Both the position numbers and the translations under genes were made by a program. 27,238 nt of DNA. Origin: a virus. This document shows positions 1,924 to 18,681 of the stretch, piece by piece; the stretch's first letter is position 1; the number at the start of each line of letters is the position of its first letter. The stretch is from positions 1 to 27,238 of IMG/VR virus record IMGVR_UViG_3300041403_001804; one strand, 5' to 3'. The notes under the pieces are model-generated. The model saw nothing but the letters and a program-made list of their open reading frames with translations, searched no databases and was not told where the DNA came from.

Positions 1924-2456
1924 CGACCAACACCAAGGAGAACGTGAAGCAGCAGATTGCCGTGCTCGACCGGATGCCGGTCCGGGAGCTTCAGGACAGG
2001 TACGCCGAGGTATTCGACGAACCGGCCCGGTCCGGCAACCGGCAGTGGCTGCTTCGGCGCGTTGCGTGGCGAATCCAGATGCTTGCAGAAGGCGATCTGG
2101 CCACGCGCGCAATGGAGCGCGCTCGCGAGCGGGCGCAGCACCTGGCTCGCGATGCGGACCTGCGTCTTCGCCCGCCGATCGCTCCTCCCGCTGTGCCGGA
2201 GAATGGTGCCAATGTCGTGTCTGGTCCGATGCAGGTCCATCGCGATGAGCGGATCCCGCCGCCCGGCACATTGCTGACGCGACGCTTCAAGGGACACGAC
2301 TACAAAGTGACCGTCCTCTCCGAAGGCTTCGAGTTCGACGGCGTCGCGTATCGATCACTCAGCGCCGTGGCACACGCCATCACCGGATCGCACTGGAACG
2401 GAATGTACTTTTTCGGCCTGGCCGAACGGAAGCGCAAGCGAGGGGCTGCGTCGTGA
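1920..2456 (+). CDS. DUF2924 domain protein
   Basis: A 178-residue basic protein. It has the DUF2924 hallmarks: an N-terminal segment with MPVRELQDRYAEVFDEPARSGNR followed by LLRRVAWRIQ, and a C-terminal segment with PPGTLLTRRFKGHDYKVTVL and FEFDGVAYRSLSAVAHAITGSHWNG. The closing part resembles the small domain thought to bind modified or recombination-site DNA, but its exact role is unknown. The family is almost always encoded directly before a large serine recombinase, as here, with GTGA overlap. It probably assists or directs recombination. Confidence 0.85.
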   Translation: MTTNTKENVKQQIAVLDRMPVRELQDRYAEVFDEPARSGNRQWLLRRVAWRIQMLAEGDLATRAMERARERAQHLARDADLRLRPPIAPPAVPENGANVVSGPMQVHRDERIPPPGTLLTRRFKGHDYKVTVLSEGFEFDGVAYRSLSAVAHAITGSHWNGMYFFGLAERKRKRGAAS

Positions 2457-4012
2457 GCCGGAACGGCGCAGTCAACCCGAAGCCGATTCGCTGCGCGATC
2501 TACACGCGCAAGAGCAGCGACGAGGGGCTGGAGCAAGACTTCAACTCGCTCGACGCCCAGCGCGATGCGGCCGAGTCATACATTGCCAGCCAGCGGGCCG
2601 AGGGCTGGACGTGCATCCCCGCCCGCTACGACGATGGCGGTTTCACCGGCGGCAACCTGGATCGGCCCGGAGTCCAGCGTCTGATGGCCGATATTGAGGC
2701 CGGGGTCATCGACTGCGTCGTGGTCTACAAAGTTGATCGACTGAGCCGGTCGCTGATCGACTTCGCTCGCATGTTGGAGGTCTTCGAGCAGAAAGGTGTC
2801 GCGTTCGTCTCGGTAACGCAGCAGTTCAACACGGCCAACTCGATGGGCCGGCTCATGCTGAACGTCCTCCTCTCGTTCGCACAATTCGAGCGCGAGGTCA
2901 TCTCTGAGCGCACCCGCGACAAGATCGCGGCGACCAAGCGCAAGGGCTTTTGGAGCGGCGGCCGTCCGGTGCTCGGCTACGACATCGAGCGCCGGCCCGG
3001 AGGCAATCGGCTCGTCGTCAACGATGCCGAGGCGTCGCAGGTCCGCCGCATCTTCGAGCTCTACCTCGAATGCGGGTCAGTGTCCCAGACGATCCGCCGC
3101 CTGGACGAGATGGGCTGGACCACGAAGCTATGGGTCACGAAACGTGGCCGTGAGATGGGGGGTCGGCCGTTTAACAAATCGCTGCTGTTCAATCTCCTCA
3201 CCAACGTCGCGTACCTCGGCAAGGTGAAACACAAGGAGGACGTCTACGACGGGCAGCACGATGCGATCATTGATGACGATCTCTTTCGGCGCGTGGAGCA
3301 GATGCTGAAGGCCAACCGCAGTGGTGACGGGCGCGGGAGCAGCAACAAGCACGGTGCGTTGTTGAAGGGTCTCGTCCGCTGTAAAGCGTGCGGTCGCTCC
3401 ATGATCCACCACTACGCTTCATCACGCCTGCAGTCCGGCACGGTCAAGTACTACCGCTACTACGTGTGCACCCGGGCGCAGAAGCGTGGCTGGGATGAAT
3501 GCCCAGGCCCGTCGCTTCCCGCGCCGGAACTCGAGCATTTCGTAGTGGACCAACTCCGATCAATCGGGCGCGACGATGCGCTGATGGCGGAGTCCGTTCG
3601 GGGCGCCCAAGATCAACTACGTGAGCGCGTTCATGCCCTCGACGCAGATCGAGCGAACACGATCGAGCAACTCGAGACGGCACGCGATGAGCTTCGCGGG
3701 TTGGTCGACAGCGGCCGCGACCGCAATGGATCCGGCGCTCGGGCAAGTGGGCTGCGCGAGGAGATCCGCGTGCTTTCGGCCGAGGACCGCCGGCAGACCA
3801 AACGTATCGCGGCAATGCAGGAGCGCCTGCTGGACGAAGACGAACTGGCTGGCGCGTTCGAGGCCTTCGACCCGATGTGGGACGCGCTGACCACGGCCGA
3901 ACGCGAACGATTGGTGCATCTGCTCGTTCGGAGCGTGGAGTACGACGCCGAGAACGAGGCGGTCAGCGTGTCGTTCCACGCGGCCGACGAGGAGGTTGAA
4001 TGTCCGACGTGA
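2453..4012 (+). CDS. Large serine recombinase (integrase)
   Basis: 519 residues with the full large serine recombinase layout. The N-terminal resolvase catalytic domain carries the nucleophile S21 in the Y-x-R-x-S motif and the downstream KVDRLSR motif near residue 95. A recombinase domain follows (about 165-290), then a zinc ribbon with Cys near 310, 313, 339 and 349. A coiled coil near 385-450 comes next; in this family it controls synapsis and integration direction. It would integrate and excise the element by cutting both DNA strands with a 5' phosphoserine link. It starts at GTG, overlapping the DUF2924 stop by 4 bp. No catalytic residue is visibly lost, so the element may still be mobile. 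Confidence 0.95.
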   Translation: MSRNGAVNPKPIRCAIYTRKSSDEGLEQDFNSLDAQRDAAESYIASQRAEGWTCIPARYDDGGFTGGNLDRPGVQRLMADIEAGVIDCVVVYKVDRLSRSLIDFARMLEVFEQKGVAFVSVTQQFNTANSMGRLMLNVLLSFAQFEREVISERTRDKIAATKRKGFWSGGRPVLGYDIERRPGGNRLVVNDAEASQVRRIFELYLECGSVSQTIRRLDEMGWTTKLWVTKRGREMGGRPFNKSLLFNLLTNVAYLGKVKHKEDVYDGQHDAIIDDDLFRRVEQMLKANRSGDGRGSSNKHGALLKGLVRCKACGRSMIHHYASSRLQSGTVKYYRYYVCTRAQKRGWDECPGPSLPAPELEHFVVDQLRSIGRDDALMAESVRGAQDQLRERVHALDADRANTIEQLETARDELRGLVDSGRDRNGSGARASGLREEIRVLSAEDRRQTKRIAAMQERLLDEDELAGAFEAFDPMWDALTTAERERLVHLLVRSVEYDAENEAVSVSFHAADEEVECPT

Positions 4013-4532: not shown

Positions 4533-4553
4533 GTCGCCTGATCTGGAGGCGAC
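4533..4553 (+). promoter_or_regulatory. Hairpin covering the ribosome binding site of the cargo operon
   Basis: GTCGCC and GGCGAC form a 6-bp stem with a 9-nt loop. The 3' arm contains part of the GGAGG ribosome binding site (4545-4549), which lies 7 nt before the ATG at 4557. Translation could be limited unless the hairpin opens. A TTGACA at 4448-4453 may be a -35 box, but no good -10 follows at the right distance. Confidence 0.35.
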
Positions 4554-4556
4554 TGC

Positions 4557-5330
4557 ATGGGTCATACGCTGCTCGGCGAACTGAAGAGGACGCGACGCTA
4601 CGAACAAGTAGTCGCTCTGCTCGCCGGCGGTGCCGACGCCCAGCAGGTTGCGCAGGCCGTCATTCAGATGGCCGAGCGCCACTTCAATCTTGCAGCGAAT
4701 GACAAAGCAGTCGTCGAGACGGTGTTTCTGTTGATGCAGTTGCCGGTAGCGGCACGATCGAGTGACTTTGAGAAGTCGCTGCGCCAGCATGGCATCGAGG
4801 TCTCCGCTGCGCCGACCGCCGATCAGTTGATTACAGCGGTCACTCAAGCGATCGATCAGAAACTGGCGGACAACCGAGGCCGAAGCGACCTTGGCGAGAT
4901 CGCGCAGAAGGCTGCCGCCGAGGCAATGAACCGACATCTACGAGAGCATCTCGGTCTGTTGTTCGATAACGCGCGGCCCGAGGACGTACGGGGCGCGTTG
5001 AAGGCTACGCACACACCGAAGAACTTCGGCGGCTTCGCACGGGTCTTCATTGGCACCATTGCAACGCATGTGCTGAACTACTTCCTCGGGCCGGCGATGA
5101 CCGACAACACGGGTGCGGGCGCGCGATTTCCAACACTCGCTGCAGCTCGCACATATCGCCAGGCGTTGAGCACGCATTGTTTCGAGGCGGCGAAGATCGT
5201 GGAGTCATTCTCCGGCGATTGGTATTCACAGGTGAAGCGGCCAGAGAAGGGCCTGACTCGTGAGGAGGTCGGCAAGTACGTGTACGGCGCGTTCCAGAAG
5301 CTCAATGCAGAACTGCGGCAGGGATTGTGA
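4557..5330 (+). CDS. Unrecognised partner protein of the QueC-like gene, candidate defence component
   Basis: 257 residues, mostly helical by appearance, with no motif I can assign. It begins Met-Gly, so Gly2 would be exposed after Met removal. Residues about 125-180 contain a mixed helical segment (HLREHLGLLFDNARPEDV, then FGGFARVFIGTIATHVLNYFLG). The C-terminal part (SFSGDWYSQVKRPEKGLTREEVGKYVYGAFQKLNAEL) looks folded and conserved-like. No signal peptide or clear membrane span is seen. It is coupled to the QueC-like gene 2 bp downstream, which suggests the two products act together. In Qat defence systems the QueC-like QatC works with a smaller partner, QatB, which also starts Met-Gly. I cannot show homology to QatB from sequence alone. 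Confidence 0.65.
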   Translation: MGHTLLGELKRTRRYEQVVALLAGGADAQQVAQAVIQMAERHFNLAANDKAVVETVFLLMQLPVAARSSDFEKSLRQHGIEVSAAPTADQLITAVTQAIDQKLADNRGRSDLGEIAQKAAAEAMNRHLREHLGLLFDNARPEDVRGALKATHTPKNFGGFARVFIGTIATHVLNYFLGPAMTDNTGAGARFPTLAAARTYRQALSTHCFEAAKIVESFSGDWYSQVKRPEKGLTREEVGKYVYGAFQKLNAELRQGL

Positions 5331-5332
5331 CG

Positions 5333-7366
5333 ATGGCGAACATTCGGCACATCATCTGCGGTGGACTCAGAGTCGCACGCGATGCGCGAGAAGCTGACAA
5401 ACCCCTGCGTCTCACCACGCAGGGCAAGGCGCCGAACACACGGCTTCAGTTGTCCGATCTCACGCGAGGCTTTGTGGCGAACATCCCTGAGGCGTTTCTC
5501 GACCTCCTCGAGATCGCCACGTATGTGTACGTTGCCGATCAGGCAGTCAAGCGCGGGTCTTACAAACTGGACGACATGGGGGAACGCTGGCGTCGTGAGC
5601 TGATCTTTGATATCCCCGTCCGGTGCCTGGACTTGTGGTCGAGTGCCGAAGTCACGCAGGAGCTGACATCGACACTCTCATTCCTGTCGGATGACGTATA
5701 CGAGTTCAGGTTTCATGAGTATCGGAAGGCACCGTCACCAGACGCCTACTTCCCGTTCGGCAAGGGGGAAGTCGCTACACAACCCGCACGCGTGGTCTTG
5801 TTCTCCGGTGGGTTGGACTCGCTTGGCGGTGCCATTGATGAAATCACGCAGCTCAGTGAGCCAATCGCGCTCCTTACCCACGAGCCATCGAAGAAGTTCC
5901 GGCCGCGCCAGCAGCTCTTACGGCAGCACCTCGATGATCGCGCTGCCGGTCCCAAGCCGTTACATGTCACGGTTGAGGTCAATAAGGCGAAGGCGCTGAA
6001 CAAGGAGTACACGCAGCGCAGCAGGTCTTTCTTGTACGCGAGCATGGCCGCTGCCGTCGCCGCTATGGCTGGGCTTCCGGGTATCCGGTTCTATGAGAAC
6101 GGCGTCATCAGCATCAACCTGCCGATCGCTGATGATGTGGTCGGTGGTCGCGCCACGAGGACGACGCACCCCAGGGTGTTGAACGGGTTTGAGCGACTAT
6201 TCACTGCGATCTCTGGAGACCGGTTCACGGTCGAGAACGGCTTCCTGTGGAAGACGAAGGCGGAGGTCATTCGTGGGATCGTCGGCGCGGGCTTCGGCAA
6301 CCTCATCGAAACGACGACCAGCTGTACGCATACCTGGCAATGGGAGAAGCAGTGGACGCACTGCGGCGTCTGTTCGCAGTGCATCGACAGGCGATTCGCC
6401 GTGCTCGCCGCGCAGGCGGAGAGCTTCGACCCTGGTGATCGATATCGCGCGGATCTGTTGCTCTCACCTCGACCTGACAACGAGCCACGCCGACTGTTGG
6501 CGAGCTATGTTGAAACCGCCCGACAGGTCGGTCTGATGAGCAAAGCTGAGTTCAAGGAGACGTTCGGCGACATCTACCGTGTCGCGGCGGAGCTGCCTGG
6601 CGCGGCCCATGAGAACATCGATCAGATCTGCGAGCTCTATCAGCGCCATGGTCGTGAGGTCGGACAGGCGCTCAGGTCAGCTGTGGCCGCCAATGGAACG
6701 ATGATCGCAAACGGTGAGTCTCCGGCCGACAGTCTCCTCCAACTGGTGCACGACATGAGCGTGCCGGCGGATGGCATGGTGAGTGCTGCAGTCGCTGATG
6801 TGACTACCAATTCGGAGCCAGAGTTCTTCTTTCGTCGTGAAGGGCCGGTGTGGTGGTATCGATTCAACGGCGATAGGCCCCGCGTCCTGTTGCCCTCACG
6901 AGGAGCTTCGTACCTGCACCTTCTCCTCTCCTCGCCCGGCACCGAGTTCTCCGTGGGGAAACTCATCCTCGCGTTGGCGAAGGATCCGAAGCAATATCAA
7001 TTCTCATCCGGCGATGAGGTGATGGATGATGAAGCACGAAGAGCAGTGTGGGCCGAATACCAGGACTACGCGAGACTGATCGAGGAAGCGGAGAAGCATG
7101 GCCACGAAGGCGAAGCCGATGGGCTGCGTGCGGAACAGGCAGAGCTGCTCTCTGAGATCAACAAGGCGGGCTACAAGAAGGTGCGAAAGCGGCTCGGCGA
7201 CGACACAGAACGACACAGAAGGTCGGTCGGAATGGCGCTGAAACGTGTGCGCGATAGCATTCGTGAGTTCGACGCGGAGTTCGCCGAACACCTGAAACGG
7301 CACGTTCGGGCGGGTCGCCACCCTCGGTACCTTGCTCCTGACGGTGTCGAGTGGGTGACGACGTAG
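5333..7366 (+). CDS. QueC-like PP-loop enzyme with C-terminal regulator-type domain, candidate defence enzyme
   Basis: 677 residues. The middle carries a QueC-type ATP pyrophosphatase domain: PP-loop SGGLDS at 158-163 and a zinc site C331, C344, C347, C350 in the CGxCxxCxxR arrangement. True QueC makes the deazaguanine preQ0 and is only about 220-240 residues. The N-terminal 145 residues are an extra domain I do not recognise. From about residue 495 to the end is a domain I recognise from the C-terminus of many bacterial regulators and adenylate-cyclase-type proteins: EGPVWWYRFNG, a winged-helix-like LHLLLSSPGTEFSVGKL, then a long coiled coil closing with FAEHLKRHVRAGRHPRYLAPDG. ATG 5333 is preferred over GTG 5327 because AGGGA lies 8 nt ahead. 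All key residues are present. A terminator follows. Confidence 0.8.
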   Translation: MANIRHIICGGLRVARDAREADKPLRLTTQGKAPNTRLQLSDLTRGFVANIPEAFLDLLEIATYVYVADQAVKRGSYKLDDMGERWRRELIFDIPVRCLDLWSSAEVTQELTSTLSFLSDDVYEFRFHEYRKAPSPDAYFPFGKGEVATQPARVVLFSGGLDSLGGAIDEITQLSEPIALLTHEPSKKFRPRQQLLRQHLDDRAAGPKPLHVTVEVNKAKALNKEYTQRSRSFLYASMAAAVAAMAGLPGIRFYENGVISINLPIADDVVGGRATRTTHPRVLNGFERLFTAISGDRFTVENGFLWKTKAEVIRGIVGAGFGNLIETTTSCTHTWQWEKQWTHCGVCSQCIDRRFAVLAAQAESFDPGDRYRADLLLSPRPDNEPRRLLASYVETARQVGLMSKAEFKETFGDIYRVAAELPGAAHENIDQICELYQRHGREVGQALRSAVAANGTMIANGESPADSLLQLVHDMSVPADGMVSAAVADVTTNSEPEFFFRREGPVWWYRFNGDRPRVLLPSRGASYLHLLLSSPGTEFSVGKLILALAKDPKQYQFSSGDEVMDDEARRAVWAEYQDYARLIEEAEKHGHEGEADGLRAEQAELLSEINKAGYKKVRKRLGDDTERHRRSVGMALKRVRDSIREFDAEFAEHLKRHVRAGRHPRYLAPDGVEWVTT

Positions 7367-7414: not shown

Positions 7415-7444
7415 GCCCGACGAGGTGGTGCTCGCCGGGCTTTT
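7415..7444 (+). terminator. Rho-independent terminator behind the cargo operon
   Basis: GCCCGACGAG and CTCGCCGGGC form a 10-bp stem with one A-C mismatch and a 6-nt loop, followed directly by TTTT. It isolates the two-gene cargo unit from the sigma factor gene. Confidence 0.8.
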
Positions 7445-7632: not shown

Positions 7633-8184
7633 ATGACAGACGGATCAGGAAACAAGCCACACTCAATCATCGACGACTACGCCGTCGAACGAGTCGACTA
7701 CCAAGTCGCCCGGCTCGGGCGCACCCTCCGCCTTTCCCATCATCGCAAGGAAGATCTCCGGCAGGATCTCCTCCTCGAACTGTGCAACGCCGCGCGCCGC
7801 TTCAATCCGGCCACGGCCAGCGCCCGGACGTTCGTGTCCCGGGTCGTCTCTTCGGCGGCTGCCCACCATGCCCGGTGCATTCGCAACGAGCGCCGCAACG
7901 GCGCTCGCTCGCCGATTCTCCTCAGCCAACTCCAGCGAGACGGTCGTCGATTCTCGCCCGTCGCGCCGCGCTCCACCGAGCCGTCCGCACACGACCTGGT
8001 GATCGATCTCGACCACGGGCTTTCCACGATGAATCGGCGGCAGCAGCAACTGGCTGAGTCGCTCAAGACGAACACCGCAGCCGAGATCGCCAAGGAACGC
8101 GGCCATCACCGCAGCACGGTCTACCGCGATCTCGCCGCGATGCGTGTGACGCTGTCCGGTCTCGATCTGCAGCCGGCAAGTTGA
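7633..8184 (+). CDS. Sigma-70-family (ECF-like) RNA polymerase sigma factor
   Basis: 183 residues. Residues about 15-90 match region 2 (RLSHHRKEDLRQDLLLELCNA, RFNPATASARTFVSRVV, then RNERRN). Residues about 130-178 match region 4, with a helix-turn-helix (NTAAEIAKERGHHRSTVYRDLAAMR). It would direct host RNA polymerase to a specific promoter class. The reading frame is open from 7402, but the upstream part is not protein-like, so the ATG at 7633 is chosen; an AGG lies 8 nt before it. The gene sits first in the early module, and copy 2 of the 31-bp element starts 10 bp after its stop, so a role in reading those elements is an attractive inference. Confidence 0.75.
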   Translation: MTDGSGNKPHSIIDDYAVERVDYQVARLGRTLRLSHHRKEDLRQDLLLELCNAARRFNPATASARTFVSRVVSSAAAHHARCIRNERRNGARSPILLSQLQRDGRRFSPVAPRSTEPSAHDLVIDLDHGLSTMNRRQQQLAESLKTNTAAEIAKERGHHRSTVYRDLAAMRVTLSGLDLQPAS

Positions 8185-8220
8185 CACAACCCCCGCGACA
8201 GATCGGCCCCGGCTGCAGAT
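8165..8220. repeat. 12-bp inverted repeat spanning the sigma gene end and element copy 2
   Basis: ATCTGCAGCCGG (8165-8176) and CCGGCTGCAGAT (8209-8220) are perfect reverse complements 32 bp apart. The first arm lies in the last codons of the sigma factor gene, the second inside the 31-bp element. It could form a transcript hairpin or be a binding site with two half-sites. No T-tract follows, so it is not a typical terminator. Confidence 0.5.
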
Positions 8221-8225
8221 GTAGA
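8195..8225 (+). promoter_or_regulatory. 31-bp module element, copy 2
   Basis: GCGACA, 19 bp containing TCGGCCCC and CTGCAGA, then TGTAGA. The spacing is identical to the copies at 1575 and 21014. It lies 108 bp before the preferred start of the early module nuclease gene. Confidence 0.6.
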
Positions 8226-8333
8226 GGAGCGATGACTTCAACACATGCACGCAGCCGGGGTCCCCGGTCGCGTCCGCTGGTCCGCTTGGGCCAGGGGTCG
8301 TACCAACGCGACTACCACCCCGAGGACCTGGGA

Positions 8334-9167
8334 ATGTCCGACACAACCGACCGACCAACCACAGCCATTGATCTTCGATTCCTGATCCGCGAACCGGCCG
8401 ACGTGTACCACGCCCGAAGCAACGAGCACGTCACGTCGCATCGTCTCGCAGAGTTCCGCCGCTGTCCGCTTCTGTTTCGCAGGAAGGAACAGGGCCTGAT
8501 TGCCGATCGCGATTCGACGGCATTCGTCGTCGGCCGCGCAGCGCACGTGCTCGTTCTCGAAGGCCGAGAACGCTACGAGCACGAGTTCGCCGTCGGCGGT
8601 CCGATCAACCCGAAGACCGGCAAGCCGTATGGCTCGGCGACGAAGGCATTCGCCGAGTGGGCCGAACGGATTGGCAAGCCGGTGATCAGCGATGACCAGG
8701 CCGCGGTGATCGAGCAAATGGCCGATGCCGTTCGCTCGCACCTCTTTGCGGCGGAACTGCTCTGTGAAGGCGTGGCCGAGGGGGTGGTCCGGTGCGAGTT
8801 CGCCGGCCACACGTGTCAGTCGCGCATCGACTGGATCAATCCCCTGCACGAGCGCGGCATTGTCGACTTCAAGACGTGCCACTCACTCGATGATTTCGAG
8901 CTGGACGCGCGAGCGTTCGGATACGTGCACCAGATGGCATTCTATCGCGCCCTCGTCGCCGAGGCGTCTGGCTTCGTGCTCCCGGTGCATCTCATCGCGG
9001 CAGAAAAGCGCGAACCGTATCGCTGCGGCGTCTGGCAGTTATCGCCGCGGGTGCTCGATGCGGCGCAGCGGGAGAACGAGCAGGCAATGTGCGAACTGAC
9101 GCAATGTCGCCAGACCGGCACCTGGCCGACGCGGTTCGAGTCACTTCGTCTCTATGAGCACCCTTAG
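8334..9167 (+). CDS. PD-(D/E)XK nuclease, RecE/exonuclease VIII-like
   Basis: 277 residues. It resembles the PDDEXK-like exodeoxyribonuclease 8 family (DUF3799). Near residues 162-183 the acidic motif is visible: RIDWINPLHERGIVDFKT, with the core D..DxK, and then HQMAFYRALV, the Q-x3-Y type motif of RecB-like nucleases. Such enzymes trim double-stranded ends for phage single-strand-annealing recombination. The start at 8334 has GAGGA 7 nt ahead; an in-frame ATG at 8232 would add 34 residues of low-complexity sequence and has only a poorly spaced GAGG. The gene opens the replication and recombination block and is followed by a RecA-like ATPase. Confidence 0.8.
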   Translation: MSDTTDRPTTAIDLRFLIREPADVYHARSNEHVTSHRLAEFRRCPLLFRRKEQGLIADRDSTAFVVGRAAHVLVLEGRERYEHEFAVGGPINPKTGKPYGSATKAFAEWAERIGKPVISDDQAAVIEQMADAVRSHLFAAELLCEGVAEGVVRCEFAGHTCQSRIDWINPLHERGIVDFKTCHSLDDFELDARAFGYVHQMAFYRALVAEASGFVLPVHLIAAEKREPYRCGVWQLSPRVLDAAQRENEQAMCELTQCRQTGTWPTRFESLRLYEHP

Positions 9168-14722: not shown

Positions 14723-15284
14723 ACCCGAGCCGCCCGGCCTCGCGAACTAACTGCGCGCACGCCGAACGGGTGTTTCCGTGCGCGCAGTTAGTTCAGATCC
14801 CGGGCCTGAACCGCGCGCACTCCCTCATCGGGGTGCGCGCAGTTCAAGCCTCTCAGGGGGTCAAATCGGCCCAACTAACTAACCGCGCGCACCCCCCCAT
14901 ACCCCCCCGGGGTGTGTGCGGCCACTTGGCCGGCACACCCGAACCAACTGCGCGCACGGTTGCGGTTCGAGTTCAGTGCGCGAGGTTCGAGAAGGTCCGC
15001 TCGGAGGCGATTAGGTACTCCCGGGCGGGATCTCTCAGCCGACGCCCGCGGGAACAGCCGCCAATCCAGACAGACTTTCTTCGCTTGTCCGGTCCGCTCC
15101 CGCCGAGGCCCCGGGCCACGACGTTGGCCCGTGTCGCGGCCGGCGCCGAGTCGCCTGCTCCTACCACCCGTCGGCCCTCCCGCCACACGGGCGAACGTCG
15201 CCCAACGTGGGCGAATCCATCACCGAATCACCGCCCCGGGGCACGGATCCGCCCCGATTCCCGCCTGCAAGGAGGCACATGCCC
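14723..15284. other. Gene-poor region with a candidate replication origin
   Basis: 562 bp. The left part (14744-14957) holds clustered copies of a GC-rich motif. The rest, to the methyltransferase start, shows no protein-like frame and no clear promoter. One 189-codon frame (14719-15288) has an ATGA overlap and GGAGGT ahead, but its translation is Arg/Pro-rich and it runs through the repeats, so I do not call it a gene. Confidence 0.5.
14744..14957. repeat. Iteron-like cluster of direct and inverted repeats
   Basis: Core GCGCGCAC preceded by GAAC with or without TAACT. Plus-orientation copies end at 14760, 14820, 14892 and 14957; minus-orientation copies lie at 14778-14794 and 14833-14845. 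Copies 14744-14760 and 14778-14794 are perfect 17-bp reverse complements with a 17-bp loop; the pair 14808-14820 and 14833-14845 forms a second hairpin. Clusters like this beside an initiator gene are typical of origins bound by the initiator. A centromere-like or regulatory role is possible. Confidence 0.65.
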
Positions 15285-16667
15285 ATGAAGGTCGTCCAAC
15301 GCCCGATCGATGACATCACCCCGTACGAGAAGAACCCGCGTCAGAACGATGCCGCCGTCGAGGCCGTCGCGGCTTCGATCCGGGAGTTCGGCTTCCGCCA
15401 GCCCATCGTCGTCGACGGCGAGGGCGTGATCATCTGCGGACACACCAGGTACAAGGCCGCGCAACAGCTCGAGCTTGCCAAGGTGCCCGTACACGTCGCC
15501 ACCGACCTCACTCCTGAGCAGATTCGGGCGTATCGCATCGCTGACAACAAGACGGGCGAACTCGCGGCCTGGGACATGGAACTGCTGCCGATCGAGATCG
15601 CCGAGCTCCAGGGCGCCGGCATCGACTGGTCTCTGCTCGGGTTCGACGCGGACGAACTCGCCAAGCTGCTCGCCGGCGATGAAGGTGTGTCGCAAGGTCT
15701 CACGGATCCGGACTCGGTGCCCGAGCCGCCCGATGATCCGGTCACACAGCCTGGCGATCTCTGGATCCTCGGCGACCATCGCCTGCTTTGCGGCGACAGC
15801 TCGAGCGCATCCGATCTCGATCGACTGCTCGACGGCGCGACGATCGACCTGGTCAACATGGATCCGCCGTACAACGTCAAGGTCGAGCCGCGCTCGAACA
15901 ACGCGATCGCCGCAGGCAACTCATCGTTCGCCGCACCCGAGGGCAAGCACCACCAGAAGTTCGACCTCGCCCGCCATCCGGAGAAGGCGAAGGGCACGCA
16001 CAAGAAGATGCGAGCCAAGGATCGTCCGCTCGAGAACGACTTCGTCACCGATGAGGCGTTCGATGAGATGCTCCTCGCGTGGTTCGGCAACGCCGCGCGC
16101 GTGCTGAAGCTCGGCGGGTCGTTCTACATCTGGGGCGGCTACGCGAACATCGGCAACTATCCGGCGCCGCTGGCGGCGAGCGGGCTGTACTTCAGCCAGG
16201 GCATTGTGTGGGACAAGCAGCACCCGGTCCTGACCCGAAAGGACTTCATGGGCGCGTTCGAGATCTGCTTCTACGGCTGGCGCGAGGGTGCTGGGCACAA
16301 GTTCTTCGGCCCCAACAACGCCACCGATCTCTGGCACATCAAGAAGGTCAACCCGCAGTCGATGGTGCATCTCACGGAGAAGCCCGTCGAGCTGGCGGTC
16401 CGCTCGATCCAGTTCTCATCGCGCCCGAAGGAGCGCGTGCTCGACCTCTTCGGTGGATCGGGCTCGACGCTCATCGGCTGCGAACAGACGGACCGACGTG
16501 CATACTTGATGGAGATCGATCCGGCGTACTGCGACGTGATCGTTCAGCGCTGGGAGGAGTTCACCGGACAGAAGGCGGAGCGGGCGCCGGGCCCTGTTCC
16601 CGGGCCAGACGCTGACGCCGAAGAGAAAGCCCCGACCGCAGTCGAGGCTGGGGAGGCGTCGGGATGA
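15285..16667 (+). CDS. ParB-like domain fused to adenine-type DNA methyltransferase
   Basis: 460 residues. Residues 1-95 are a ParB/Srx-like nuclease domain (YEKNPRQND, IVVDGEGVIICGHTRYKAAQQL). Residues about 160-435 are a beta-class methyltransferase: DPPY at 193-196, then FGGSGSTLIGCE starting at 389, in the IV-then-I order of N6-adenine or N4-cytosine enzymes. Such fusions are widespread in phages and islands and modify DNA without a cognate nuclease. No restriction enzyme is nearby, so protection from host restriction or regulation is likely. The start is ATG 15285, with AAGGAGG 9 nt ahead; ATG 15279 is too close to it. The stop is 5 bp from a convergent gene. Confidence 0.9.
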   Translation: MKVVQRPIDDITPYEKNPRQNDAAVEAVAASIREFGFRQPIVVDGEGVIICGHTRYKAAQQLELAKVPVHVATDLTPEQIRAYRIADNKTGELAAWDMELLPIEIAELQGAGIDWSLLGFDADELAKLLAGDEGVSQGLTDPDSVPEPPDDPVTQPGDLWILGDHRLLCGDSSSASDLDRLLDGATIDLVNMDPPYNVKVEPRSNNAIAAGNSSFAAPEGKHHQKFDLARHPEKAKGTHKKMRAKDRPLENDFVTDEAFDEMLLAWFGNAARVLKLGGSFYIWGGYANIGNYPAPLAASGLYFSQGIVWDKQHPVLTRKDFMGAFEICFYGWREGAGHKFFGPNNATDLWHIKKVNPQSMVHLTEKPVELAVRSIQFSSRPKERVLDLFGGSGSTLIGCEQTDRRAYLMEIDPAYCDVIVQRWEEFTGQKAERAPGPVPGPDADAEEKAPTAVEAGEASG

Positions 16668-16672
16668 TCTGC

Positions 16673-17035
16673 CTACTCGGGGCCCTTCTCCCGGAGGGCG
16701 TGGAACTCGATCATCGCGTCCTCGAAGAGGCACCGGCCCGCCGCGTAGTTGCGGCGGTAGCGCGTGACCACGCACCCGCGTTCCTTCATGAACGCGAGTG
16801 CGACGGCGGTCTGCGTGCTGGGCGTGTCGGCGGCCGTGGCGAGTTCCTCGAGCGTGAAGCCGGGGTCGCCCGTCTGTGTGCTGAACAACTCGGCCGCATG
16901 CGCGATGTTTTCGTAGGACGCGCGCGGGCATCGATGTTCGTATGGCTCGCCGCGCCCCCAGATGGGCACGACCGACCTGACCAGGTGGTCATCGGCGACC
17001 GTGAAGTGCTCGATGCGTTCGGGTGCGCTGGTCAT
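16673..17035 (-). CDS. Hypothetical protein with winged-helix-like part
   Basis: 120 residues. I recognise no named family. The middle (FTLEELATAADTPSTQTAVALAFMKERGCV) reads like a winged-helix DNA-binding unit, and the end (YAAGRCLFEDAMIEFHALRE) is well ordered. It is the last gene of the minus-strand cluster, 3 bp after the HARE-HTH gene, with AAGGGAG before its ATG inside that gene's end. It may be regulatory, but this rests on appearance alone. Confidence 0.7.
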   Translation of the reverse strand: MTSAPERIEHFTVADDHLVRSVVPIWGRGEPYEHRCPRASYENIAHAAELFSTQTGDPGFTLEELATAADTPSTQTAVALAFMKERGCVVTRYRRNYAAGRCLFEDAMIEFHALREKGPE

Positions 17036-17038
17036 CGG

Positions 17039-17692
17039 TCACGCTCCCTTCCGCAGCTGGAACCGGCCGCGGTCGACCTTCTCGAAACGGGCGTCCTTCG
17101 CCTTCTTCGAGATCTCGCGGATGATCGCGGCGTAGAGCGTCGCCGAGGGCGTCTTGCCGCTCGTGGACCAGAGCTTCTTCGCGATGGCGTGCTCGACGAT
17201 GTCCTTGCAGCCCATCGGTTCCTTGGCCTTGGCCAGGATCTGGGCCGCGGCGTCGAGGATGCCGGTGCGGGCCTTGGGTTTCTCGCCGCCGGACTTCGCC
17301 CTTGTCGCGGCCTTCGCGGTCGTGGCCCGTGTGGCCGTCTTTGCCTTGCCCTTCGCGGGAGTCGCGGCCGTCTTGCCGCGCGGTGCCTTCTTCGACTTTG
17401 CGCTGCGGTTCATCGCCCGCTCGCTCGAGGTCTGCCCGTCCTCGCTCGTCTTCCGTTCGTCGCGGACGCGGGCGTTCTCCTTGTCAGCGGCCGCGACCGC
17501 CTTGGCCTCGGCGCCCGTCATCGACGGCGCCCGCAGGCGCTGGGCGCTCTTGATACGGACCTTCTTCTTCGTGGCCAGGTTGGTCGCGTCCCAGCCGCCC
17601 CCGGCGTTCTCTGCGTCGATGCGGACGTCCGTGAGCTTGTCACTCACCTTGGCGCGATAGACGCTTCCGATCTTGATGTCTGCCTTCTTCAT
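17039..17692 (-). CDS. HB1/HARE-HTH domain protein with basic linker
   Basis: 217 residues. The N-terminal 50 residues read like a small beta-rich domain (IKIGSVYRAKVSDKLTDVRI, then ATNLATKKKVRIKS). A Lys/Ala/Thr-rich basic stretch follows (about 85-140), histone-tail-like, probably binding DNA without specificity. Residues 144-214 match the HARE-HTH winged helix (GILDAAAQILAKAKEPMGCK ... KLWSTSGKTPSATLYAAI ... FEKVDRGRFQL). The domain is proposed to link DNA recognition to modified or chromatin DNA, and is frequent in planctomycetes. AAGGAG lies 8 nt before the ATG. Confidence 0.85.
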   Translation of the reverse strand: MKKADIKIGSVYRAKVSDKLTDVRIDAENAGGGWDATNLATKKKVRIKSAQRLRAPSMTGAEAKAVAAADKENARVRDERKTSEDGQTSSERAMNRSAKSKKAPRGKTAATPAKGKAKTATRATTAKAATRAKSGGEKPKARTGILDAAAQILAKAKEPMGCKDIVEHAIAKKLWSTSGKTPSATLYAAIIREISKKAKDARFEKVDRGRFQLRKGA

Positions 17693-17713
17693 GGCGTGGA
17701 CTCCTTCTGCGAC

Positions 17714-18055
17714 TCAGTCGCGGTTCATGTTGGTGACCAGCGCCCACTCGGCGCGGATCGGTTCGTATCGGTGGGGAAAGACGGTGTGGCCGCGTCGCTC
17801 GAGGGCGTCGGAGAAGCGGCTGCAGAGCTCGCCGACGTTGACGCGGTGTTCGGCCAGTGCCGGGGCGACCGTGCTCGCGGCCTGGCCTCGGCGATCGGCC
17901 TCGATGGTGCGCCGGAGCGCGTCCGTCTTCTCGGCGATCGTGATCTCGAGGCGCTCGGCCTTCCGGGCGGTCTCGTTGATCAGGTCAGCCAGCTGTTGCT
18001 GAAGCGCCGCGATCTCGCGGACGGCGTCGTCGGTGTTGGTGGTCTTGCGGGGCAT
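17714..18055 (-). CDS. Hypothetical coiled-coil protein
   Basis: 113 residues, unrecognised. Residues about 12-55 form a likely coiled coil (REIAALQQQLADLINETARKA). The C-terminal part (VNVGELCSRFSDALERRGHTVFPHRYEPI) looks compact. GGAGGAG precedes the ATG. It lies in the same operon as the HARE-HTH gene, 21 bp upstream of it. Confidence 0.65.
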   Translation of the reverse strand: MPRKTTNTDDAVREIAALQQQLADLINETARKAERLEITIAEKTDALRRTIEADRRGQAASTVAPALAEHRVNVGELCSRFSDALERRGHTVFPHRYEPIRAEWALVTNMNRD

Positions 18056-18100
18056 GTGGCTCCTCCTGGAACGACAGCCCGCCGCGAGTTCGCGGCGGGC

Positions 18101-18337
18101 TCAGGTCGTGATCTGCTGGACGGTGACTTCCGATCCGCATCGCGGGCACGGTGCGGTGCGGGGCAAAGGCCCGCTCTCCCTTCCGGCGTGGTACGCGGCG
18201 AGGAGCGCCTCGCGGATCGACCAGACGGCGAGGTCGTGGAAGTCGAGGCTGTCGCTCCGCCGCGTTTCGAGGGTCGGCAGATCCAGCACGGTCTTGGCGA
18301 TCTCTTCAATGCGTTGGTTGATGTCGTCGTGTCGCAT
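18101..18337 (-). CDS. Small DUF6900-like protein
   Basis: 78 residues. The segment DSLDFHDLAVWSIREALLAAYHAGR matches, from memory, the DUF6900 pattern seen in small phage and plasmid proteins; its function is unknown. A CPRCG pair near the C-terminus is only half a zinc site. It is the first gene of the minus-strand cluster, 104 bp from the divergent packaging operon. AAAGGA lies about 10 nt before the ATG. Confidence 0.7.
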   Translation of the reverse strand: MRHDDINQRIEEIAKTVLDLPTLETRRSDSLDFHDLAVWSIREALLAAYHAGRESGPLPRTAPCPRCGSEVTVQQITT

Positions 18338-18441
18338 GGCGATGTCGTCCTTTCACGCACACAAGGGCATGGACTGGCGAAGACATCAAGGCCACTGCGC
18401 GAGGAATCGCCAGATGTGGGCAACTTCTCGCGGAGGGCGGC
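18338..18441. promoter_or_regulatory. Divergent intergenic region
   Basis: 104 bp between the minus-strand cluster and the packaging genes. Promoters for both directions are expected here by layout. I see no strong -35/-10 pair and no copy of the 31-bp element. Confidence 0.3.
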
Positions 18442-18681
18442 GTGACGGCGGAATCGGATGTCAAACAGGGGCAACTGAATCCCGCCGCGCTCGGGCCTGA
18501 CGACCTTGCGCGCCTCCTGTCCGCGGCCTCGGGTGTGGGCGTCGATGCGGACGATGTGCGCGCCGACATCGATGCCGGCGCGCCGGCAAACCCGGACGGC
18601 ACGCTGAACCTCGTGCACTACGCCGCGTGGCTCGTCCGGCAACTGGCCGCGCAGGGAGGCGGGCCCCGTGGTGGCGATTGA
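18442..18681 (+). CDS. Small packaging-region protein related to the terminase N-terminus
   Basis: 79 residues starting at GTG, with GGAGG 5 nt ahead. Its body (LGPDDLARLL ... TLNLVHYAAWLVRQL) follows the same pattern as residues about 5-60 of the next gene (LRPSELAQLL ... RVDLIRYVAWLVQEH). This suggests a shared domain. Small-terminase genes lie exactly here in many phages, so a TerS-like DNA-binding role is plausible. It overlaps the next gene by 14 bp. Confidence 0.6.
   Translation: MTAESDVKQGQLNPAALGPDDLARLLSAASGVGVDADDVRADIDAGAPANPDGTLNLVHYAAWLVRQLAAQGGGPRGGD

Follow-up and report, generated by a model that had tools for sequence, protein, structure and literature searches.

The window, that is, the whole stretch of 27,238 nucleotides that was analysed, is a phage record, and two overlapping genes on its plus strand form the locus under study. 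The upstream ORF (4557-5330, 257 aa; hereafter the partner) has an ATG start with GGAGG directly upstream, and because an in-frame stop lies at 4539, Met-Gly-His is the true N-terminus of the protein; the alternative that the partner lacks its true start is ruled out by the same stop. The downstream ORF (5327-7366, 679 aa; hereafter the enzyme) has a GTG start, and this GTG and the TGA of the partner overlap by 4 bases. Both ORFs lie where the original prediction had placed them, with the intact SGGLDS and the four zinc cysteines it had described. The features of the locus and of its borders are the following.

2453-4012, plus strand: large serine recombinase (phage integrase), left side of the apparent cargo slot
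4545-4549, plus strand: GGAGG ribosome-binding site of the partner gene, from sequence
4557-5330, plus strand: partner protein, 257 aa, predicted all-helical with the first ~12 residues flexible, probable divergent QatB
4557-4565, plus strand: Met-Gly-His N-terminus with Gly2 as the proposed acceptor (MGH in 57/61 collected partners)
5327-7366, plus strand: QatC-family PP-loop enzyme, 679 aa (profile, PDB sequence matches, and tree)
5804-5821, plus strand: SGGLDS ATP pyrophosphate-binding loop, residues 160-165
6155-6172, plus strand: TRTTHP, residues 277-282, the Qat-type Thr-x-Thr pocket and then His-Pro (residue roles from PMC13279940)
6323-6382, plus strand: zinc cysteines 333, 346, 349, and 352 (C...CGVCSQC)
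6677-7363, plus strand: C-terminal extension of the enzyme, residues 451-679, predicted to be an OmpR-like winged helix that a helical hairpin interrupts
7415-7444, plus strand: terminator-like hairpin and then UUUU (-20.5 kcal/mol, z -3.0)
8181-9167, plus strand: exonuclease VIII-like protein, right side of the apparent cargo slot

The pair had been credited with its own terminator, and the hairpin and UUUU are indeed present, but the consensus terminator scan does not report this hairpin because its T run is short. Scans of the window for sigma-70 promoters, Rfam families, and tRNAs gave no match. Third-position GC is 0.71 in the pair versus 0.75-0.81 in the flanking phage genes listed. The left flank encodes a DUF2924 protein, the large serine recombinase, and a small phage recombinase-associated protein, and the right flank a sigma-like factor, the exonuclease, a Sak4-like AAA protein, an SSB-like protein, a helicase, and a primase, beyond which lie the terminase, portal, and head protease genes. 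Elsewhere in the window, a DNA methyltransferase fused to a ParB-like nuclease/partition domain is encoded at 15207-16667, and between this gene and the terminase there is an ORF of 593 aa (16664-18445) for which PHROGs gives no match at E 0.001.

The order of recombinase, pair, and early genes is conserved in relatives (L002, L003/L049, and L163). In the related phage L153, the same recombinase-to-exonuclease slot is filled by AbiEi/AbiEii (L153:4762-7025), and the slot looks like a site of defence cargo. Another related phage carries, upstream of the exonuclease, an XRE-type regulator, a peptidase-like protein, and proteins of 402 and 427 aa (L210:213-6864), which are possibly another unnamed cargo system; by eye, the end of the 427-aa protein resembles the C-terminal domain of the window enzyme.

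The enzyme is a member of the QatC family, and the label QueC-like was too weak. The match to the NCBIfam QatC model (NF041925) has E 3e-57 and 194 bits, that to PADLOC QatC has E 2e-51, and that to QatC in the PDB by sequence has E 1e-29 (solved chains 9vlk_A and 9zee_B), whereas the canonical QueC model (TIGR00364) gives E 0.026 and 14 bits against a cut-off of 150 bits, which excludes a canonical QueC role. The score of 194 bits lies below the curated NF041925 cut-off of 280 bits, and intact relatives score about 170-224 bits. SGGxDS, an Asp, Arg-x-Arg, Glu-Asn-Gly, Arg-Thr-x-His-Pro, and the four zinc cysteines are invariant among the enzyme, a classical QatC, and a Leptospira plasmid homologue; across the relatives, SGGxDS is found in 55/56, and Thr/Ser-Arg-Thr/Ser-x-His-Pro and HCGxCxxC each in 56/56. 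In QatC of P. aeruginosa, two Thr stand in place of the deazaguanine-reading Tyr/Asp of QueC and Cap9, and mutating them abolishes defence (PMC13279940); both are retained in the window enzyme. That the pair is an operon of purine or deazapurine small-molecule metabolism, with no part in defence, is extremely unlikely: PF06508 does include metabolic branches (PMC13329287), but the enzyme groups with QatC and falls well short of the cut-off for canonical QueC, some of its relatives are fused to a nuclease, and the neighbours are defence and mobile genes.

The partner has no meaningful match in Pfam, PADLOC, NCBIfam, or PHROGs. Its AlphaFold2 model is all-helical (mean pLDDT 84.5); residues 1-7 are disordered, and the first helix is at 13. 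In hhalign, the partner matched nine QatB with probabilities of 75-78% (E 2e-5) across about 150 columns (wider range, probability 58-78 and E 1e-4 to 2e-5). The best of 100 column shuffles scored 18 against 43 for the real alignment; some block shuffles scored as high as the real one, since the matching segment can survive inside a block, and this weak match may rest on a short segment. The matched stretch covers QatB helix 164-182, which bears most of the QatC-contacting residues named (PMC13279940). Foldseek of the partner against the PDB, in a library that may not include the QatB structures, returned no match. On these sequence comparisons, the assignment to QatB is suggestive and not proof, and the partner probably represents a highly diverged QatB. 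The statement that none of the usual partners are present therefore holds for QatA, QatD, and CD-NTase, but probably not for QatB.

Neither the KAP NTPase QatA nor the TatD nuclease QatD was found among the window ORFs, and one QatA and one QatD query gave no phmmer match among the 3337 ORFs of the collected loci; as predicted, neither of these nor any queuosine gene lies next to the pair. With the QatB-QatC core of qatABCD (NF041925; PDB 9zee/9zef and 9vlk/9vll; PMC13279940), the pair shares the N-terminal extension of the enzyme, SGGxDS, Thr-x-Thr, and the zinc site, as well as a helical partner encoded just upstream in an overlapping gene, with a flexible N-terminus and Gly2. The pair is nevertheless not to be filed as qatABCD, because it has neither QatA nor QatD, no QatB signature, and an enzyme below the QatC score cut-off. 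Unlike classical QatB, the partner is invisible to QatB models, begins MGH and not MGTS, and has a tail of ~12 residues instead of 30-90; unlike classical QatC, the enzymes of this branch add a DNA-binding-like or nuclease C-terminal domain. A DNA-processing domain on the QatC C-terminus is likewise seen in a QatC-QatD fusion of a Bradyrhizobium plasmid (L035:3330-5459; 42% and 50% identity to the two halves), but there the fused domain is TatD, and a classical QatB and a separate NTPase gene lie upstream. Canonical QueC shares the PP-loop and zinc fold, and the window enzyme has no other Q genes beside it. Type IV CBASS (Cap9/CD-NTase) shares a QueC-fold enzyme and a Met-Gly partner and was ruled out, as the partner has no CD-NTase match, the pocket is Thr-x-Thr and lacks the deazaguanine Tyr/Asp, and the enzyme is much longer.

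The pair is a real coupled unit, as had been proposed. With the partner alone as bait across genome contigs, 27 chromosomal partner loci were recovered, and in every one a QatC-family gene follows the partner gene, either overlapping it or directly next to it (in one case truncated at the end of a contig, in another split). They come from Planctomycetota, Rhodobacteraceae, Verrucomicrobiota, Chloroflexi, Bacteroidota, Ignavibacteria, Brocadia, Omnitrophota, and a Clostridiaceae bin. Viral contigs contributed 20 loci, 18 of which carry the enzyme, one (L067) only a fragment of it, and one (L064) none; in almost all loci, the enzyme overlaps the partner. Among 296 Rhodobacteraceae genomes, the partner was found in 19, a QatC-family match in 22, and both in 16 (Fisher P 6e-19). 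One of the three partner-only genomes has a transposase gene in the enzyme position, and in the remaining two the match to the partner is truncated. In a tree of the QatC core, built from bait-driven samples only so that intermediate groups may exist, these enzymes stand apart from 12 sampled classical QatC on a 100/100 branch. The idea of an undescribed system is accordingly upheld as a minimal coupled pair but revised to a separate branch of Qat and not an unrelated system, because the enzyme is QatC-family and QatB and QatC alone already suffice for defence (PMC13279940). Our literature search, of incomplete coverage, found no account of this two-gene branch. Only about a third of QatC-cluster genes adjoin qatA or qatD (PMC13329287), and members of the branch may already be present, unnamed, inside that cluster.

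The enzyme carries an extra C-terminal region of ~230 residues that is absent from classical QatC. In the window enzyme, this region is predicted to form strands and helices followed by a long hairpin of helices and, at the end, a pair of strands; many of its best Foldseek matches in the PDB are OmpR/PhoB-family DNA-binding domains, none significant (E 0.2 or more), and from this modelling the domain is predicted to be winged-helix-like. Among the relatives, 17 enzymes have the window-type domain, 15 group with a nuclease-type profile, 14 fall into three mutually aligning Rhodobacteraceae classes, 7 are Ignavibacteria-type, 2 are of another type, and 1 is masked. Three representatives (L004, L016, and L023) pass the gathering score of PF18742 (PD-(D/E)XK, DpnII/MboI), L013 is a weak member of the nuclease-type group, and PF18742 has no match in the C-terminus of the window enzyme. 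A domain similar to the window-type one occurs on a Streptomyces plasmid under an AAA ATPase annotation.

The prediction of a mobile or defence setting agrees with the neighbourhoods. The two genes closest to the chromosomal pairs on either side matched 131 PADLOC families at E 1e-20, with Hma, SoFic, and type I restriction among them, versus 23 in control regions; the contrast is indicative, given that one restriction operon matches many models and that only some of these genomes supplied the control regions. Integrases and recombinases of phages are frequent in the neighbourhoods. The original prediction also fares well in that the two genes co-occur, their contexts are mobile or defence, and the Q pathway is absent nearby. 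These contexts bear on a further reading, in which the winged helix would bind phage operators, the pair would regulate lysogeny or early genes with the modification as signal, and defence would be secondary or absent. The predicted winged helix at the end of window-type enzymes and the position beside the integrase and early genes fit such a regulator, but the same pair is also found in chromosomes with a nuclease instead, and among defence genes, and the pair is not needed by the phage, since related phages hold AbiE or other genes in the slot; we regard a regulatory role as quite unlikely.

The Met-Gly start of the partner was borne out as Met-Gly-His, with Gly2 conserved among relatives. 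MGH is the N-terminus in 57 of the 61 collected partners, a count in which some chromosomal loci are biased, as one of their two bait patterns began MGH, and in which the viral-contig patterns and the Rhodobacteraceae profile search imposed no MGH; one more partner has MGH a few residues inside the called ORF, and one has MGN. The last two, MDH (L064) and MRH (L067), belong to the two viral loci without the catalytic domain. Both are full-length open frames on phage contigs with in-frame stops just upstream: in one (L064:7001-7765), the partner is intact and the enzyme is absent, and in the other (L067:7001-8106), an intact partner is accompanied by a 110-residue ORF whose only match is to the region beyond the zinc site (residues 354-449 in a relative), equivalent by position to the QatB-binding helices of QatC. 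Gly2 is kept wherever the enzyme is complete (P 0.002 for the association, from two orphans only and noticed after the fact), and a third enzyme-less partner, next to a transposase, retains it. In QatB, G2D abolishes defence (PMC13279940). The two Gly2-less orphans support Gly2 as the acceptor and are themselves candidate decoys, or possibly products of decay. It is very unlikely that the phage-borne pair is itself a counter-defence by which a Qat-type system resident in the host is poisoned; the decoy-like intact partners without Gly2 on two phage contigs, one of which retains just the piece of the enzyme that binds the partner, point that way, but catalytic residues and Gly2 are intact in the window pair and in most phage pairs, as in a working system.

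Type IV CBASS Cap9 links 7-carboxy-7-deazaguanine to Gly2 of its partner. A classical deazaguanylation, in which the enzyme would likewise join 7-carboxy-7-deazaguanine to Gly2 of the partner, would suit the conserved QueC fold, ATP site, zinc site, and Gly2, has already been proposed for QatB (PMC13329287), and is compatible with the QueD and QueE-like matches present in most Bacteroidota carriers and several others. We consider it unlikely, as Thr-x-Thr replaces the deazaguanine-reading Tyr/Asp (roles in PMC13279940), and QueE and canonical QueC are absent from 11/11 tested Rhodobacteraceae carriers and QueD from 9 of them, though TGT, the positive control, is present in 11/11 (some of the surveyed genomes are MAGs, but with a uniform pattern, and Caulobacter, part of the control set, scored positive). 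QueE and QueD are also absent from the six Rhodobacteraceae with QatC but no partner (G194, G261, G300, G081, G041, and G278), an observation that bears on the unsolved chemistry of classical Qat. The original suggestion of a deazaguanine on Gly2 thus keeps its glycine, but its deazaguanine is weakened by the pocket and by the carriers without QueE and QueC. Because QueE and QueC, and mostly QueD, are absent from the carriers, de novo 7-carboxy-7-deazaguanine (CDG) is unlikely to be the transferred group in Rhodobacteraceae; the host of the window phage may differ.

Alongside the computed QatC membership, catalytic residues, gene coupling, C-terminal domain classes, and mobile and defence context, we propose that the pair is a Qat-type anti-phage system, minimal and self-contained, which a temperate phage carries as cargo. 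The enzyme, of the QatC family, would bind its helical QatB-like partner and, using ATP, would put a small group on the N-terminal glycine of the partner after removal of Met, and the modified complex would be the active form; the ~12-residue tail of the partner may or may not reach the enzyme active site. The C-terminal domain of the enzyme, winged-helix-like in the window phage and a DpnII/MboI-type nuclease in many chromosomal relatives, would replace the separate QatA and QatD and direct the complex to DNA, a role that we infer. The attached group is probably not de novo 7-carboxy-7-deazaguanine, at least in Rhodobacteraceae. As a whole, this mechanism seems to us somewhat more probable than otherwise, and its anti-phage part taken alone is rather likely. 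A bolder and doubtful reading is that of a separate two-gene immunity by N-terminal protein modification, with a non-deazaguanine cofactor and an exchangeable DNA-binding or nuclease domain, countered by Gly2-less decoys of phages.

The group attached by QatC and the way in which QatBC stops phage are stated open questions (PMC13279940). The branch described here is a widespread and apparently unnamed two-gene branch of Qat, a naturally minimal version whose enzyme carries the likely effector as a fusion, and in which both questions are easier to test. The absence of QueD and QueE in many carriers counts against deazaguanine and directs the search for the cofactor elsewhere, and the Gly2-less orphan partners of phages are ready-made candidates for a Qat inhibitor.
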